Shown here in pieces: positions 4,029-23,687 of a stretch of 26,291 nt of DNA (position 1 is the first letter of the stretch; the number at the start of each line of letters is the position of its first letter). The DNA is from a virus, in IMG/VR virus record IMGVR_UViG_3300018036_000055, positions 1 through 26,291 of that record; one strand, 5' to 3'. Made by a program: the position numbers and the translations under genes. Below the pieces are notes generated by a model, which was not told the origin of the DNA, did no database searches, and saw only the letters and a list, made by a program, of their open reading frames with translations.

Positions 4029-4638
4029 ACGTCTGTTCTTTGCGGTCTGCCATTCCCTTTGTTCCACCGTTTACAATACGGCTTACTTTCTCAATCACTT
4101 CGTCATTTACGCCTTGATCGCAAATGGGCCATAGCTTCTTTTTATCGAAGAACCACATAGCACTTTCGAACGCAAAGTCTGTCGCTACGCGGGTTGGGTC
4201 TTGCAAGATTTCAGGAATGCGCATGTCGGCTGCTAACTGTCTATAGTTTGTTCGACCCGTACACATGATCCAGCCGCGACCCTTAAACAAATACCCGTCA
4301 CCGTCAAACACGTTTCCAAGCGCACCGCCCTTGCTTCTATGCTTATCCATGTAAACGTAATTAGCTATCTTTTCAGGATTACGTGCATATGGTTCCGCAT
4401 CTTCTACAGTTGGGAAATAGCGACGAAAAACCTTGTGCAATCCACCAGCGGAATAATTTAGGTTTTCTTGATCGTACCGAAAATAACCGCTTTCGTGTGA
4501 TGCTTGGCCCAGCAAGTGCGCTGCCCGTTCTGGTGATAGTTTATAATGCTTGGCAACCCCACGGGCTGTATTAGGCCCAAACTGACCGTCTGCCGTACAC
4601 CCACAACGCGCCTGAAGCGCTTTCATTGCATCTGACAT
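4000..4638 (-). CDS. Endolysin, glycoside hydrolase family 19 (chitinase-like)
   Basis: Predicted to cut the glycan backbone of the host peptidoglycan at the end of infection. Residues 5-30 (LQARCGCTADGQFGPNTARG) resemble the repeat of a peptidoglycan-binding domain fused directly to the lysozyme-like core. The GH19 signature GQASHESGYF (44-53) supplies the catalytic glutamate E49. YLFKGRGWIMCTGRTNY (116-132) is the substrate-cleft segment (family pattern F-x-G-R-G-x-x-Q-x-T-G-R-x-N-Y), and VSRIVNGG (185-192) closes the fold. There is no signal peptide or signal-anchor, so export must depend on a holin. The start overlaps the stop of the upstream holin candidate (TAATG). The length of 212 fits single-domain phage GH19 endolysins. 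Confidence 0.92.
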   Translation of the reverse strand: MSDAMKALQARCGCTADGQFGPNTARGVAKHYKLSPERAAHLLGQASHESGYFRYDQENLNYSAGGLHKVFRRYFPTVEDAEPYARNPEKIANYVYMDKHRSKGGALGNVFDGDGYLFKGRGWIMCTGRTNYRQLAADMRIPEILQDPTRVATDFAFESAMWFFDKKKLWPICDQGVNDEVIEKVSRIVNGGTKGMADRKEQTFKIYSWLTA

Positions 4639-5030
4639 TACTTGTTACCCCCGAAAAATTTAGTAGCTGATCGAACACCGAAACTGGCGGCCACGATTAC
4701 ACCCAAAGTATATTGATACCAGCTAGGCATACTTTCAAGCGCTGCGAACCCGTTTGTTACAGCCTGTTCTGCCCATGCGAATGGTAAAAAACAAAGAATA
4801 AGCGGCACAGAAAACAAAATTGTTAGCCATTCATCTTTCCAGCTATTCTGTGACCCTTGGGCCATTAGCTTTTCCCATTCGGCTTCAGAAGTAGCTGCGG
4901 ATTTCATAATTGTGGCTTTGGCTTCTGCCTCTACCAGTTTCAGGTTAGCCGCTGCCGCTTGTGCATCAGCTTTGCCCTTCAGCCATCCACCAGCTAATTC
5001 AGTTAATGGGCCTATCAGCGCTTGTAGCAT
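4638..5030 (-). CDS. Holin-type membrane protein (130 aa)
   Basis: ATG 5030 has GGGGA seven bases upstream; the alternative TTG at 5057 would overlap the preceding gene further. Residues 1-60 are an alanine- and glutamate-rich amphipathic helix or coiled coil (KADAQAAAANLKLVEAEAKA). WKDEWLTILFSVPLILCFLPF (about 64-84) is the first membrane segment and YQYTLGVIVAASFGV (about 104-118) the second, with an amphipathic helix between and a basic end. This resembles the 3TM/GTA-type holins in layout. It lies directly upstream of the endolysin, where the pore that releases it is expected. The EF-hand gene upstream overlaps it by 32 bases. Confidence 0.7.
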   Translation of the reverse strand: MLQALIGPLTELAGGWLKGKADAQAAAANLKLVEAEAKATIMKSAATSEAEWEKLMAQGSQNSWKDEWLTILFSVPLILCFLPFAWAEQAVTNGFAALESMPSWYQYTLGVIVAASFGVRSATKFFGGNK

Positions 5031-5331
5031 TTTTATTCCCCATAGCGTTAAATCCAAAATATGCGGCTACCACGCCACTAGCGCCAATGACGTAAACACT
5101 AGCAATGTCGGTAATTAGTTCTGCCGCCCGTTCTAAGCCTACCCACGTAGCCATAACGATAATTAGAGGGTACAAGAGCATTCCAGCGGTACAAGCTACT
5201 GTAAGCCGCCTTTCTGTGTCCCTCTTAGCGTCTTGATCTTCCATGCGTCTGCGTCGATCTTCTAACATGATTTCCCATTCTTCGGGGTCAATCTTGTTAT
5301 TTCCGTTTAGATCGTAAGTTTCTTTGTTCAT
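4999..5331 (-). CDS. EF-hand two-helix membrane protein (110 aa)
   Basis: The N-terminus carries a canonical EF-hand loop at residues 7-18 (DLNGNNKIDPEE): calcium ligands at positions 1, 3, 5, 9 and 12 are D7, N9, N11, D15, E18, with Gly at loop position 4 relative to the usual 6, and Ile at position 8. It is followed by a charged helix (EIMLEDRRRRMEDQDAKRD, about 20-38). Two hydrophobic helices follow: about 49-68 (AGMLLYPLIIVMATWVGL) and about 74-95 (ITDIASVYVIGASGVVAAYF). The ribosome site AAGG precedes ATG 5331. This domain order recurs in marine phages near lysis genes, as I recall. Calcium binding is inferred from the loop. Confidence 0.8.
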   Translation of the reverse strand: MNKETYDLNGNNKIDPEEWEIMLEDRRRRMEDQDAKRDTERRLTVACTAGMLLYPLIIVMATWVGLERAAELITDIASVYVIGASGVVAAYFGFNAMGNKNATSADRPIN

Positions 5332-5425
5332 GGGCGTACCTTTCCCCGATCTTTCTGGTGCGTGTAATTATAAGTAATTTTCCATCTTCATCATAGAAAA
5401 AATACTTACTGCCCCTTTTTACCAT
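5297..5425 (-). CDS. Possible small protein bridging two lysis-region genes (42 aa)
   Basis: A 42-codon frame (44 if ATG 5431 is used) spans the 74-base gap between two membrane-protein genes and overlaps both in other frames. It overlaps the upstream gene by 20 bases and the downstream one by 35. The product has SKYFFYDEDGKLLIITRTRK (about 6-25), a beta-hairpin-like motif, and a basic end. The sequence looks protein-like and would fill one of the few gaps on this strand. The ribosome binding site is poor and the double overlap is unusual, so this could be a chance frame. Confidence 0.4.
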   Translation of the reverse strand: MVKRGSKYFFYDEDGKLLIITRTRKIGERYAHEQRNLRSKRK

Positions 5426-5663
5426 AACCATTTAATGCCGAACCTGTCAAAAGTGCGCCAAATGCCAGATGAAACATGCCGCCCCCTTGTAACGTGAACG
5501 GCTGGTGATGCTGCCAAACCTGTTTAAACTTTTCTATGTTAAGATAGGCCAAATCATCAATAAGTGGCCTATTTATTCCTATCCAGCTAGGAACAACCAC
5601 GAAATCAAAGAAGCAAATAAAAGCGTAGACGTAGGCAAGAATAGCTTTCCATTCATCACGCAT
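5406..5663 (-). CDS. Two-helix holin-like membrane protein (85 aa)
   Basis: Starts MRDEWKAILAYVYAFICFFD, with one membrane helix at about 7-27, then a polar loop (about 28-54). A second, glycine-rich helix follows, GGGMFHLAFGALLTGSALNG (about 60-79), and the protein ends GYGKKGQ. The pattern (MRDEW start, then T-L-Q-G-G-G-x-F-H-L-A-F-G-A before helix two) is one I associate with holin-like proteins of marine podo- and siphoviruses. It sits with other membrane genes upstream of the endolysin, which supports pore formation or holin control. It starts four bases after the 54-residue gene's stop. Confidence 0.7.
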   Translation of the reverse strand: MRDEWKAILAYVYAFICFFDFVVVPSWIGINRPLIDDLAYLNIEKFKQVWQHHQPFTLQGGGMFHLAFGALLTGSALNGYGKKGQ

Positions 5664-5667
5664 TCAA

Positions 5668-5832
5668 TCAATTCCGATCAACGGCAAAGCATGTGACCGC
5701 TTGGCTGGCGTTCTTTACCATGACTTCGGCCTTTACCTTGGCGCGATTACAGTGCGCTTCAGTACCGAATGCGCCTAGCTGGTAATATTCAAACTTGCCA
5801 TCGAAGAAACTAAGCCAAACCAATATAAACAT
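5668..5832 (-). CDS. Short secreted-type protein with two cysteines (54 aa)
   Basis: Translated by hand from the interval between two longer genes, which would otherwise be a 168-base gap. The ATG at 5832 overlaps the upstream stop (TGATG), the usual coupling seen on this strand. The product starts with a hydrophobic stretch (MFILVWLSFFDG, 1-12) and then reads KFEYYQLGAFGTEAHC with C28, followed by an alanine/lysine-rich helix and C48 near the end. A hydrophobic start with two cysteines would suit an exported, disulfide-bonded protein. I do not know the function. The open frame, spacing and marine-phage look make it likely real. Confidence 0.7.
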   Translation of the reverse strand: MFILVWLSFFDGKFEYYQLGAFGTEAHCNRAKVKAEVMVKNASQAVTCFAVDRN

Positions 5833-6308
5833 CACCAATCACCGCGCCCACGACCGATGGCCCAGATAATAAAACCTAGCACCCCGCCACCAACCGCAAA
5901 CAAAGTTAAACCAATAACCCAATTCACTAGGTTATCGATAAATTCTTGTTTTTTGTATGCTTCTTCTTTTCTACGTCTGCGCTGTTCTGCTTCTATGCGT
6001 AGTATTTCATCCCAAGCGCTAGGCCCGTACACGAAAGAAATATGATCCTTAATTTCGTTTCGCATTTCGTCCATTTTGCGCCGTTGGTTCCAAATCAACA
6101 AGGCTTCTTCTTCATCAGAACCTTTAAAGGTCTTTTCCCACCAAGGCGGGTTTTTCTGGCGTTCTTCTAGTCTATTGAAGTCGGAAAAGGCTTGGCCCCA
6201 CGTTGCAATCGTGTTGCCCATTTCTTGGATGTCTTTACCCGTGGAAATAGCTGCTTTAAGCGTTTTATACGCCCCTGTCGCTAATGCTACGCAGCTAACG
6301 GGATCCAT
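5832..6308 (-). CDS. Membrane-anchored protein of unknown function, lysis region (158 aa)
   Basis: Residues 1-30 are hydrophobic to amphipathic (MDPVSCVALATGAYKTLKAA), suggesting membrane association. The middle is charged: NPPWWEKTFKG (53-63), a helical acidic/basic stretch, and YGPSAWDEILRIEAEQRRRR (94-113), probably coiled. A single clear membrane helix lies at about 128-151 (WVIGLTLFAVGGGVLGFIIW), followed by a short RGRGDW tail. The layout recurs in marine phages near lysis or tail genes, as I recall, without an assigned function. Options include a spanin-like or holin-regulating role, or a structural protein at the inner membrane. It lies between two other membrane proteins. Confidence 0.65.
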   Translation of the reverse strand: MDPVSCVALATGAYKTLKAAISTGKDIQEMGNTIATWGQAFSDFNRLEERQKNPPWWEKTFKGSDEEEALLIWNQRRKMDEMRNEIKDHISFVYGPSAWDEILRIEAEQRRRRKEEAYKKQEFIDNLVNWVIGLTLFAVGGGVLGFIIWAIGRGRGDW

Positions 6309-6310
6309 CG

Positions 6311-6562
6311 CTACCGCTTTTCGATAAACTCGCGTATATGCTTCAGGTTTTCATCGATACGACCCAACATAATTGCGTGGTCATTTACTCGACTTTCTAG
6401 TGCCTGAATGTCGGTATCATTCCGCATGATGTTTTTGGTGTTTGTGTCGATAGTATTTTGCGCATCAGCTATTAGCCAACCCAAAATAAAGGTTTGGGCC
6501 ACTATCCCAACTAGAAAGCTAATCGGAATTGTCTTGGACAAGTGCCAATTTTCGTTTGCCAT
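6311..6562 (-). CDS. One-helix protein with coiled-coil tail (83 aa), i-spanin-like layout
   Basis: ATG 6562 is preferred over ATG 6586 because GAGG sits eight bases upstream and it gives MANENWHLSKTIPISFLVGI as a start. A membrane helix covers about 11-33 (IPISFLVGIVAQTFILGWL). The rest (35-83) is a heptad-like helix rich in N, D, E, R and I/L (NTIDTNTKNIMRNDTDIQAL and onward to IREFIEKR). A short cytoplasmic start, one anchor and a long helical outer segment match the layout of Rz-type inner-membrane spanins. No outer-membrane lipoprotein partner (lipobox) was found embedded or next to it, so the spanin idea is only a layout match. Confidence 0.6.
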   Translation of the reverse strand: MANENWHLSKTIPISFLVGIVAQTFILGWLIADAQNTIDTNTKNIMRNDTDIQALESRVNDHAIMLGRIDENLKHIREFIEKR

Positions 6563-6572
6563 ATTCTGCGCC

Positions 6573-6899
6573 TCAAGTGATGTCATCGACTATTTGCACC
6601 CTAATATAACCGTTATTTGGAAAAGTCTCAATCGTGCCATCTGTATTTGTAATTTCAAACTCTGCCTCATAAGCGCCAACGGTAGCGGTATCGGCGGCTT
6701 GCCATGCGTATGAAACTTGTCCAGCATCAACATCATAAATGGTTGCGGCTGCGTCTACTACGGCTGTTGTACCGCCTAATTCACGCATGTGAAAACGCAC
6801 TGTCGAACCAGATAATTCTATTAGTGTACCAGCACCATCTTTTAGTGTGGCAAGTATTGCTGGTGATGTATCATTCTGTTTTATGTAAAATGTAGCCAT
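6573..6899 (-). CDS. Ig-like baseplate/tail protein, BppU N-terminal-like (108 aa)
   Basis: The whole protein fits the BppU N-terminal domain: FYIKQNDTSPAI (4-15), LSGSTVRFHMRE (29-40), a GQVSYAW strand (about 60-66), GAYEAEFEITNTDGTIETFP (about 75-94), then GYIRVQIVDDI. This beta-sandwich sits in the upper baseplate of lactococcal phages and occurs as a stand-alone unit in many others. It probably links a fibre or adhesin to the tail tip. The gene begins one base after the stop of the large repeat protein, suggesting the two are made together and may bind each other. Confidence 0.75.
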   Translation of the reverse strand: MATFYIKQNDTSPAILATLKDGAGTLIELSGSTVRFHMRELGGTTAVVDAAATIYDVDAGQVSYAWQAADTATVGAYEAEFEITNTDGTIETFPNNGYIRVQIVDDIT

Positions 6900-6900
6900 A

Positions 6901-8133
6901 TTAACTTGCCTTGTTGTGTGTCACAATTTCCACGATATTAGCAGATATGTCATCAATTTGCACATATCTTAGGAAAGCCGCACCAAATGGAATTGTCGGG
7001 ACTACTGGCGCACCTGTCACAATGTCATCAGGGACTAAATTACGTGTCGTATCCATTACAACCGCTGGAACAATAGGCGCACCAGTTTCACAGTCATCAG
7101 CGCCAAGAATATGTTTTTCGTCTAAATCTGGCGAACCTAAATCTGGCGCACCAGCTTCTAAGGCTGGCGGTTCAAATGTCTGATCTTGGTTGATTGTTGT
7201 ATCACCAACGCTAGGAATACCCGCATTGATATTGTCAGCAACCAACACAGAAATAATTGTTGCGTCAACGCTTTCGACTACAGGATTACCCGTTGCAATA
7301 CTTACAGCCGTAAAGGTTTCTTCTTCTGACATAGAAACCGCTGGTACACTTGGCGCACCCGTCACGATATTTTCCGCAACAAAGGTTTCTTCTTCTGCCA
7401 TGTTTGCATTTGATACGCTTGGCGTTCCTGTCGCAATAGAATTGGGCGAGAAAATATGTATCTGCGCTATTGTGGTACTTGGAACGCTTGGCGAACCTGT
7501 CACAATGCTATCTGCCGCTAGAATATCAACTTGTTCGATAACTGGTGAACCGACAGATGGTGAACCTGTTACGATGCTATCAGCGGTAAATGTTTCATCT
7601 TCTGACATTGCCACAGATGGAACACTTGGCGCACCAGTAACAATGTTGTCTGCCGTTAGCGTTTCATCTTCTGACATGGAAACAGAAGGTACAGATGGTG
7701 AACCAGTAGCTATGGCAGTAGCAGTCAACGCATGTGTTTGGCCTATTGTTGTAGATGCTACACTTGGCGCACCAGTAGCGATTGCCGTAGCTGTTAGGCT
7801 ATGTTCTTGATCTATTTCTGGACTTGCTAGGCTTGGCGAACCAGTAACAAACCCTGTTCCAGTTAACGCATGTTCTTGATTGATCTGTGGGCTGCCTAAT
7901 ACGGGTTCCCCAGCGGCAAAATCAGCAGTTGTGAAGGTTTCACGTTCTGCCATGTTACAGTTGTTAACAACAGGATTGCCCGTTGCAATAGCTGTAGCCG
8001 TTAGAGCGTGTTCCTGATTAATTGCTGGCGAACCTACCGCTGGTGCGCCCGTTGCTATATTGGATGCACCAAGTTCATAAACAACGCCATCATCACCAAG
8101 TGATGCGGCAGATAATGGTGCAAATCCTAGCAT
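6901..8133 (-). CDS. Tandem 23-residue repeat protein, probable tail adhesin or fibre (410 aa)
   Basis: After a 24-residue leader, residues 25-392 are sixteen consecutive units of exactly 23 residues with no insertions or deletions. The core is [AS]-I-[AV]-T-G-[AS]-P-S-V-P/A-S-x-x-[IM]-x-x-x-x-x-[LF]-T-A-[TD]. Two linker types alternate irregularly: INQEHALTA and MSEDETFTA. The last units diverge, and the C-terminal 18 residues are unique. A strict short period with conserved Gly-x-Pro and spaced hydrophobics suggests a beta-solenoid or elongated rod. The place among fibre, chaperone and Ig-like genes suggests a tail spike or host-binding rod. Repeats like this can change copy number by recombination. 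Start ATG 8133 has GAGG upstream. Confidence 0.75.
   Translation of the reverse strand: MLGFAPLSAASLGDDGVVYELGASNIATGAPAVGSPAINQEHALTATAIATGNPVVNNCNMAERETFTTADFAAGEPVLGSPQINQEHALTGTGFVTGSPSLASPEIDQEHSLTATAIATGAPSVASTTIGQTHALTATAIATGSPSVPSVSMSEDETLTADNIVTGAPSVPSVAMSEDETFTADSIVTGSPSVGSPVIEQVDILAADSIVTGSPSVPSTTIAQIHIFSPNSIATGTPSVSNANMAEEETFVAENIVTGAPSVPAVSMSEEETFTAVSIATGNPVVESVDATIISVLVADNINAGIPSVGDTTINQDQTFEPPALEAGAPDLGSPDLDEKHILGADDCETGAPIVPAVVMDTTRNLVPDDIVTGAPVVPTIPFGAAFLRYVQIDDISANIVEIVTHNKAS
6958..8061 (-). repeat. Tandem 69-bp coding repeat, 16 units
   Basis: Sixteen in-frame 69-base units (1104 bases) encode the 23-residue repeats of the adhesin gene. At the DNA level units are diverged but share short blocks around the TGxPSV codons, seen on the + strand as repeats of the type CTTGGCGCACC and GATGGTGAACC. 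Units near the centre are most alike and end units least, as expected from repeat expansion in the middle. Confidence 0.85.
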
Positions 8134-23408: not shown

Positions 23409-23687
23409 TCACCATTTCACTTTCGCTGCCCAATATGCCGCCGACATTTTGCCTTTGGCTATATTCTTTTGATGACGCGCCAAAAATGACTTTCTTCTAG
23501 CTTTCTGCGCTGCCGATTTCGGGTTTTTACCCGCACCTTTTACGCCCTGTTGACCAAATCTAATGGTCTTAACTTTACTACCCACTTTAGCCAAAACCAC
23601 ATGCGATTTTTTCGGGTGGCTTGGTGTTCTCTTAGGCTTGTTGTAACCTGATACACCTAACTTTTTTATGCGTGGGTCTTTAGCCAT
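23409..23687 (-). CDS. Basic protein, DUF6321-like (92 aa)
   Basis: The sequence matches the DUF6321 layout I remember: MAKDPRIKKLGVSGYNKPKR (1-20), TPSHPKKSHVVLAKVGSKVK (21-40), TIRFGQQGVKGAGKN, then a basic helix ARRKSFLARHQKNIAKGKMS (about 63-82) ending AAYWAAKVKW. The family occurs in many tailed phages near head genes, without a proven function; its basic, compact nature suggests nucleic-acid or capsid contact. The start overlaps the 25-residue gene's stop (TAATG). Confidence 0.8.
   Translation of the reverse strand: MAKDPRIKKLGVSGYNKPKRTPSHPKKSHVVLAKVGSKVKTIRFGQQGVKGAGKNPKSAAQKARRKSFLARHQKNIAKGKMSAAYWAAKVKW

Follow-up and report, generated by a model that had tools for sequence, protein, structure and literature searches.

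A minus-strand gene of the virus contig IMGVR_UViG_3300018036_000055 (26,291 bases, analysed over its whole length and called the window below) encodes a holin-like protein with two predicted transmembrane segments (TMs) and a built-in EF-hand, which falls outside every curated holin family tested. The protein belongs to a large, previously undescribed family found in phages of Roseobacter, Pelagibacter, Methylophilales and Limnohabitans, and no other part of the family's sequence is as constrained as the EF-hand loop. We consider a role in lysis probable. The explanation that we favour, a lysis-cassette membrane protein of the class II holin type with an N-terminal, cytosolic, Ca2+-selective EF-hand joined to a long charged helix, has in our judgement an even chance of being correct, and the same balance applies to the narrower statement that the protein is the holin proper. 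Gating of lysis by Ca2+ is put forward as a tentative idea only.

The predicted protein

The open reading frame (MNKETYDLNGNNKIDPEEWEIMLEDRRRRMEDQDAKRDTERRLTVACTAGMLLYPLIIVMATWVGLERAAELITDIASVYVIGASGVVAAYFGFNAMGNKNATSADRPIN) begins with an ATG preceded by a plausible ribosome-binding site (AAAGG, 7 nt upstream). It is 110 aa long. Its coordinates had been given exactly in an earlier note on this DNA, which also numbered the loop ligands correctly: D7, N9, N11, D15 and E18 occupy loop positions 1, 3, 5, 9 and 12 (Table 1). The layout described there, a loop leading into a charged helix and two membrane helices, was borne out by the sequence, by hydropathy and by a structure model. The AlphaFold2 model consists of two long helices (residues 16-64 and 67-104) with a moderate mean confidence of 74.8, while the loop itself is modelled with low confidence (pLDDT 55-61). 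Fold searches with this model against the PDB and viral models gave nothing below E=0.001, a result that says little because two-helix hairpins are uninformative.

Table 1. Positions of the EF-hand gene, its parts and the neighbouring genes in the window
Feature	Position	Strand	Basis
EF-hand / charged helix / two-TM protein, holin candidate	4999-5331	minus	ORF, 110 aa; family in viral contigs; loop conservation; PDB profile match to calmodulin
12-residue EF-hand loop, residues 7-18 (DLNGNNKIDPEE)	5278-5313	minus	Ca2+ ligands only at the ligand positions, 42/42 diverse members
Predicted membrane segment 1, residues 43-61	5149-5205	minus	hydropathy; helix 16-64 in model
Predicted membrane segment 2, residues 72-90	5062-5118	minus	hydropathy; helix 67-104 in model
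130-aa membrane protein (phrog_2524), downstream	4638-5030	minus	slot filled by GTA_holin_3TM proteins in related cassettes
GH19-type endolysin, 212 aa	4000-4638	minus	phrog_181 endolysin, E=4.4e-48; cluster of GH19-like endolysins adjoining the family
44-aa protein, no predicted TM, overlaps start of EF-hand gene	5297-5431	minus	recurs at position -1 (38 loci)
85-aa protein, one predicted TM	5406-5663	minus	hydropathy; no family match (Pfam, PHROGs)
56-aa small protein, hydrophobic N-terminus	5668-5838	minus	recurrent cassette member
158-aa protein, one C-terminal TM	5832-6308	minus	phrog_32327, E=3.1e-10; recurrent upstream partner; DC31 homologue
91-aa one-TM protein, long hydrophilic helix-like tail, cassette member	6311-6586	minus	weak matches to spanin- and hemolysin-type PHROGs

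Across the family, the charged helix (residues 19-43) carries on average about 6.5 Lys/Arg and 6.6 Asp/Glu. The basic residues are unevenly spread along the chain, with 6.5 in the N-terminal helix, 0.6 in the loop between the TMs and 2.9 in the C-terminal tail, so that the turn between the hydrophobic segments is short and nearly uncharged and the tail is basic. Given this charge pattern and the positive-inside rule, both the N and the C terminus are predicted to be cytosolic.

The protein is small, and its two TMs, predicted by hydropathy, correspond to a pair of long helices in the model. It thus resembles class II holins (phage 21 S type) and two-TM holins in general in its size, its two TMs, the predicted cytosolic position of both ends and its place beside endolysin and spanin genes, but they share no sequence match with the family above curated cut-offs; to our knowledge none of them carries an EF-hand, and none with one was found in the open-licence literature. 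Among the curated holin families of Pfam, PHROGs and NCBIfam none matched above cut-off, the best being Phage_holin_3_6 (Putative Actinobacterial Holin-X, holin superfamily III, PF07332; best E=0.0041). Its matches, weak and seen in 7 of 18 members, are not significant, and PF07332 has no EF-hand.

Conservation of the EF-hand loop

The window protein taken singly does not prove an EF-hand, because its matches to the Pfam EF-hand models stay below the cut-offs (EF-hand_5, E=0.0012); the proof comes from the family. One pass through IMG/VR with the window protein returned 435 loci and scans with divergent members added many more; removal of duplicates left 319 unique marine family proteins, of which 315 are N-terminally complete. 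A strict loop pattern was passed by 304 of the 319. Read by eye, the 15 exceptions comprise four proteins cut at a contig end, two with an overlong predicted N-terminus that places the loop outside the searched stretch, and nine with a substitution at loop position 9 (Gln in a small group, Gly in one protein), and once these are taken into account the loop is present in all 315 complete proteins. The freshwater branch shows the strict loop in 60 of 61 proteins, the remaining one being cut (60/60 complete), which brings the total to 375 of 375 N-terminally complete proteins (315 + 60).

An alignment of 42 diverse members, about 20-85% identical to the window protein, located this constraint precisely. 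All 42 have ligands at loop positions 1, 3, 5, 9 and 12 and a hydrophobic residue at position 8: position 3 is Asn or Asp, position 5 Asp, Asn or Ser, position 8 Ile, Val or Leu, and position 9 Asp, Thr, Ser or Glu, while the residues between vary freely. Averaged over the five ligand positions, the entropy is 0.79 bits; the other positions of the loop average 2.14 and the rest of the alignment about 1.5. Position 6 is Asn in the window protein and Gly in the other 41 members. The loop residues, whose non-conservation had been named beforehand as grounds for giving up the idea, thus proved conserved in the homologues, D7 and E18 being the only invariant columns of the alignment.

Chance seldom yields such a pattern: the strict loop arose in 58 of 200,000 shuffles of the window protein (0.03%) and in 5 of 6,224 other ORFs of the fetched loci (0.08%). 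Of 18 members, 16-17 are recognised by the Pfam models EF-hand_1 or EF-hand_5, and the family profile, compared with the PDB, matched calmodulin (E=4.9e-8) with an alignment across the loop and the exiting helix. These two elements are what the family shares with calmodulin and EF-hand_1/5; it differs from them in its single loop, its fusion to a membrane hairpin and its encoding by phages. At the level of sequence the EF-hand is therefore confirmed as genuine, and the observation is stronger than the earlier reader could know, while the interpretation offered with it is supported in part. A search of open-licence papers found no description of an EF-hand holin or of a protein of this kind.

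From these features, the protein very probably binds Ca2+. Glu at position 12 of an EF-hand loop favours Ca2+ over Mg2+, and isolated EF-hand loops bind Ca2+ weakly unless paired; each chain has one loop, and pairing, which we assume, would need an oligomer.

The freshwater members bear on what the site is for. The earlier note had argued from the abundance of calcium in seawater, and this part of its case did not hold up well: every complete protein of the branch around Limnohabitans phage DC31 has the loop, which weakens a trigger specific to seawater. The same retention, in waters where outside Ca2+ is much lower, fits an account in which the EF-hand senses nothing and Ca2+ or Mg2+ only helps an ordinary holin to keep its fold or to stay oligomeric; a single loop joined directly to a helix could indeed be a structural cap. 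Such a role, compatible with holin function, sits less well with the invariant Glu at position 12, typical of Ca2+ selectivity, and with cytosolic Ca2+ before lysis, normally too low to fill the site. We regard it as possible, on the doubtful side.

Lysis genes around the EF-hand gene

The major capsid protein of the window is of the P22-coat type, which is also seen in siphophages, Rhizobium phage P106B among them. The EF-hand gene belongs to a minus-strand run (6586 to 4000) that ends with the gene of the 130-aa membrane protein and then that of the GH19-type endolysin. For the membrane protein gene an alternative start exists (TTG at 5057), but homologues begin at a MLQALIGP-type sequence, corresponding to the ATG at 5030, which is therefore the likelier start; read from there, the gene shares about 32 bases with the EF-hand gene. 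Its product has no Pfam match. An assignment to GTA_holin_3TM on sequence was rejected, because only 25 N-terminal columns align, and the assignment is kept as one of position. The EF-hand gene had been described as lying between two holin-like genes; this holds downstream, where the neighbour occupies the 3-TM holin slot, and fails directly upstream, where the 44-aa protein has no predicted TM.

Two further observations concern the surroundings. The 158-aa protein (phrog_32327) repeatedly accompanies the EF-hand gene, in freshwater phages as well as in marine sipho- and podophages, and looks like a conserved second member of the cassette. Beyond the run, positions 6901-8133 hold a 410-aa ORF of imperfect repeats (IVTGAPSVPSVSMSEDETFTAD type), with a 69-base DNA tandem repeat at 7553-7708.

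We then counted neighbours within four genes on each side of the 319 unique (non-identical) marine members. In 184 loci this range held a 3-TM-holin-like gene, a spanin-like gene or an endolysin (of M15, GH19 or GH108 type); of the others, 72 lie amid T4-like tail genes and lack any lysis gene at this distance, 25 are of the CRP-207 type and 38 are unclassified, many of them cut short. The lysis-cassette setting, with an endolysin in the window's own run, extends to these 184 loci and to the freshwater loci. Matches of representative neighbours were to GTA_holin_3TM, GH108 endolysin, M15 endolysins and Rz-like spanin.

Individual cassettes show how close the association is. In CRP-810 the EF-hand gene is directly followed by GTA_holin_3TM (E=2.5e-20) and then by a GH108 endolysin. 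In CRP-1 it overlaps by one base the gene of an M15-type endolysin (phrog_465), after which comes a short lipoprotein laid out like a unimolecular spanin, with its TM at the C terminus. Freshwater cassettes encode the EF-hand protein, then an Rz-like spanin, then an M15 endolysin: the order in Limnohabitans phage DC31 is a one-TM coil-like protein, a 160-aa protein, the EF-hand protein, a 149-aa spanin-like protein, whose counterpart in related contigs matches Rz-like spanins, and an L-alanyl-D-glutamate peptidase. No recognised endolysin adjoins the EF-hand gene in loci of the CRP-207 type.

Three side observations belong here. Short lipoproteins with a C-terminal TM, again in the unimolecular spanin layout, lie after or before the endolysin in Roseobacter phages (L087 3755-4096 and L081 4784-5149), annotated as hypothetical or spanin2. 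A small basic protein near the capsid gene of the window (23409-23687, ending HQKNIAKGKMSAAYWAAKVKW) resembles by eye the basic protein adjoining the EF-hand gene in CRP-207-type phages. A Euryarchaeota MAG contig (PAJM01000045.1, 7270-9150; L456) carries a 158-aa-type protein, the EF-hand protein, a 3-TM-type gene and an M15 endolysin, and is probably a phage contig misplaced in that bin; as the sole match in genome contigs, with the same phage cassette, it led us to reject a cellular origin of the family.

In about 100 loci besides the window itself, the EF-hand gene has a 3-TM-holin-like gene no more than four genes away, nearly always immediately downstream. Pairs of holin and antiholin are commonly encoded as two holin-like genes in one cassette, and the EF-hand protein could accordingly be a lysis regulator, an antiholin or holin partner, with the hole made by the adjacent 3-TM-type protein and Ca2+ switching delay or synchronisation off or on. 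This account has to face the 82 lysis-type loci with no such gene within four genes. It also meets difficulty in the Roseobacter phages CRP-1 and CRP-345, in which we scanned the proteins below about 180 aa (in CRP-345, those beyond the first 4.7 kb): no 3-TM-holin-like partner was seen among them, and the EF-hand protein was the only holin-like small two-TM hairpin, apart from the spanin-like lipoprotein and the doubtful, more soluble-looking gp42 of CRP-345. Nor did profile comparison show the two proteins to be homologous: hhalign aligned them at E=0.006 over a plausible motif, but reversed-sequence and other-family controls scored equally. With no profile match either, GTA_holin_3TM (DUF3154, PF11351) is a neighbour in the same cassette, directly downstream in those of the CRP-810 type, and not the EF-hand family itself. 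A purely regulatory protein of this sort seems to us rather unlikely.

The T4-like branch

In HTVC008M, Melnitz and many T4-like contigs the EF-hand gene typically lies between gp51 and the tape-measure gene, and on account of this placement a tail or virion role has to be weighed. In the cyanophage S-SM1 the slot between these two genes holds no gene, which argues that the EF-hand gene is not a core tail gene. The soil Stenotrophomonas phage DLP6 has, between gp51 and a tape-measure/lysozyme gene (L466 2396-2842), a two-TM protein weakly similar to the family and devoid of the EF loop, which may represent a loop-less state.

A tree of 99 members, built on a short alignment with rough support, places lysis-type members at the base and at the tips with the T4-type members nested, and its well supported branches require the T4-tail label to have changed at least four times. 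From these repeated changes we conclude that the EF-hand gene travels between cassettes, and we read the T4 position as that of a holin gene carried in the late operon. That the protein instead serves tail- or membrane-associated assembly or DNA entry, lying beside lysis genes by chance and using Ca2+ structurally or in adsorption, would suit the gp51/tape-measure position and the DLP6 protein in the same slot, but is improbable given the empty slot of S-SM1, the nesting of the T4-type members and the spread of lysis-type contexts, with endolysins of several types, over podophages, siphophages and freshwater phages.

HTVC008M has annotated 'endolysin' genes and no annotated holin; among its annotated small proteins, two TMs are predicted in only two, the EF-hand protein and a 67-aa protein. 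For Melnitz, the outer-membrane curli pore CsgG/CsgF was proposed as a pinholin analogue timing lysis, in a text that contains neither the word 'holin' nor 'EF-hand' (PMC9004378); this is a phage that also carries a member of the EF-hand family.

Discussion

The preferred explanation, a class-II-like holin with a Ca2+ sensor, suggests the following sequence of events. Bacterial cytosolic free Ca2+ is submicromolar, so the loop would be empty while copies of the protein build up in the inner membrane. Once a first lesion formed or the membrane potential fell, periplasmic Ca2+ would enter; the loops would bind it, the acidic N-terminus would be neutralised and the charged helices could pack. Hole formation would in this way turn co-operative, the endolysin would be let out and the spanins would begin to act. 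Where a 3-TM-holin-like protein is encoded as well, the window included, the EF-hand protein might act as a Ca2+-responsive partner or antiholin, while in cassettes that lack one it would itself be the holin.

Calcium control of a phage lysis protein has a precedent in EndoT5 of phage T5, a calcium-activated M15 endolysin (PMC10487532). There, the ion is bound by the enzyme and not by a membrane protein, and the fold differs from that of the EF-hand protein.

How holins come to be triggered at a fixed time is a long-standing question, membrane-potential collapse being the well-known external trigger. In a holin candidate, a built-in switch that binds an ion would give this question a mutable residue pair, D7/E18. 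The family also offers a holin candidate for important marine phages in which none is annotated (HTVC008M, Melnitz). In its most ambitious form our proposal is of a widespread, undescribed family of Ca2+-gated holins in aquatic phages, where Ca2+ influx turns the first lesion into a co-operative, all-or-none switch; we hold this to be speculative and somewhat unlikely as a whole. If true, it would tie the lysis of abundant aquatic bacteria to calcium, and these viruses may use Ca2+ to time the opening of their hosts.
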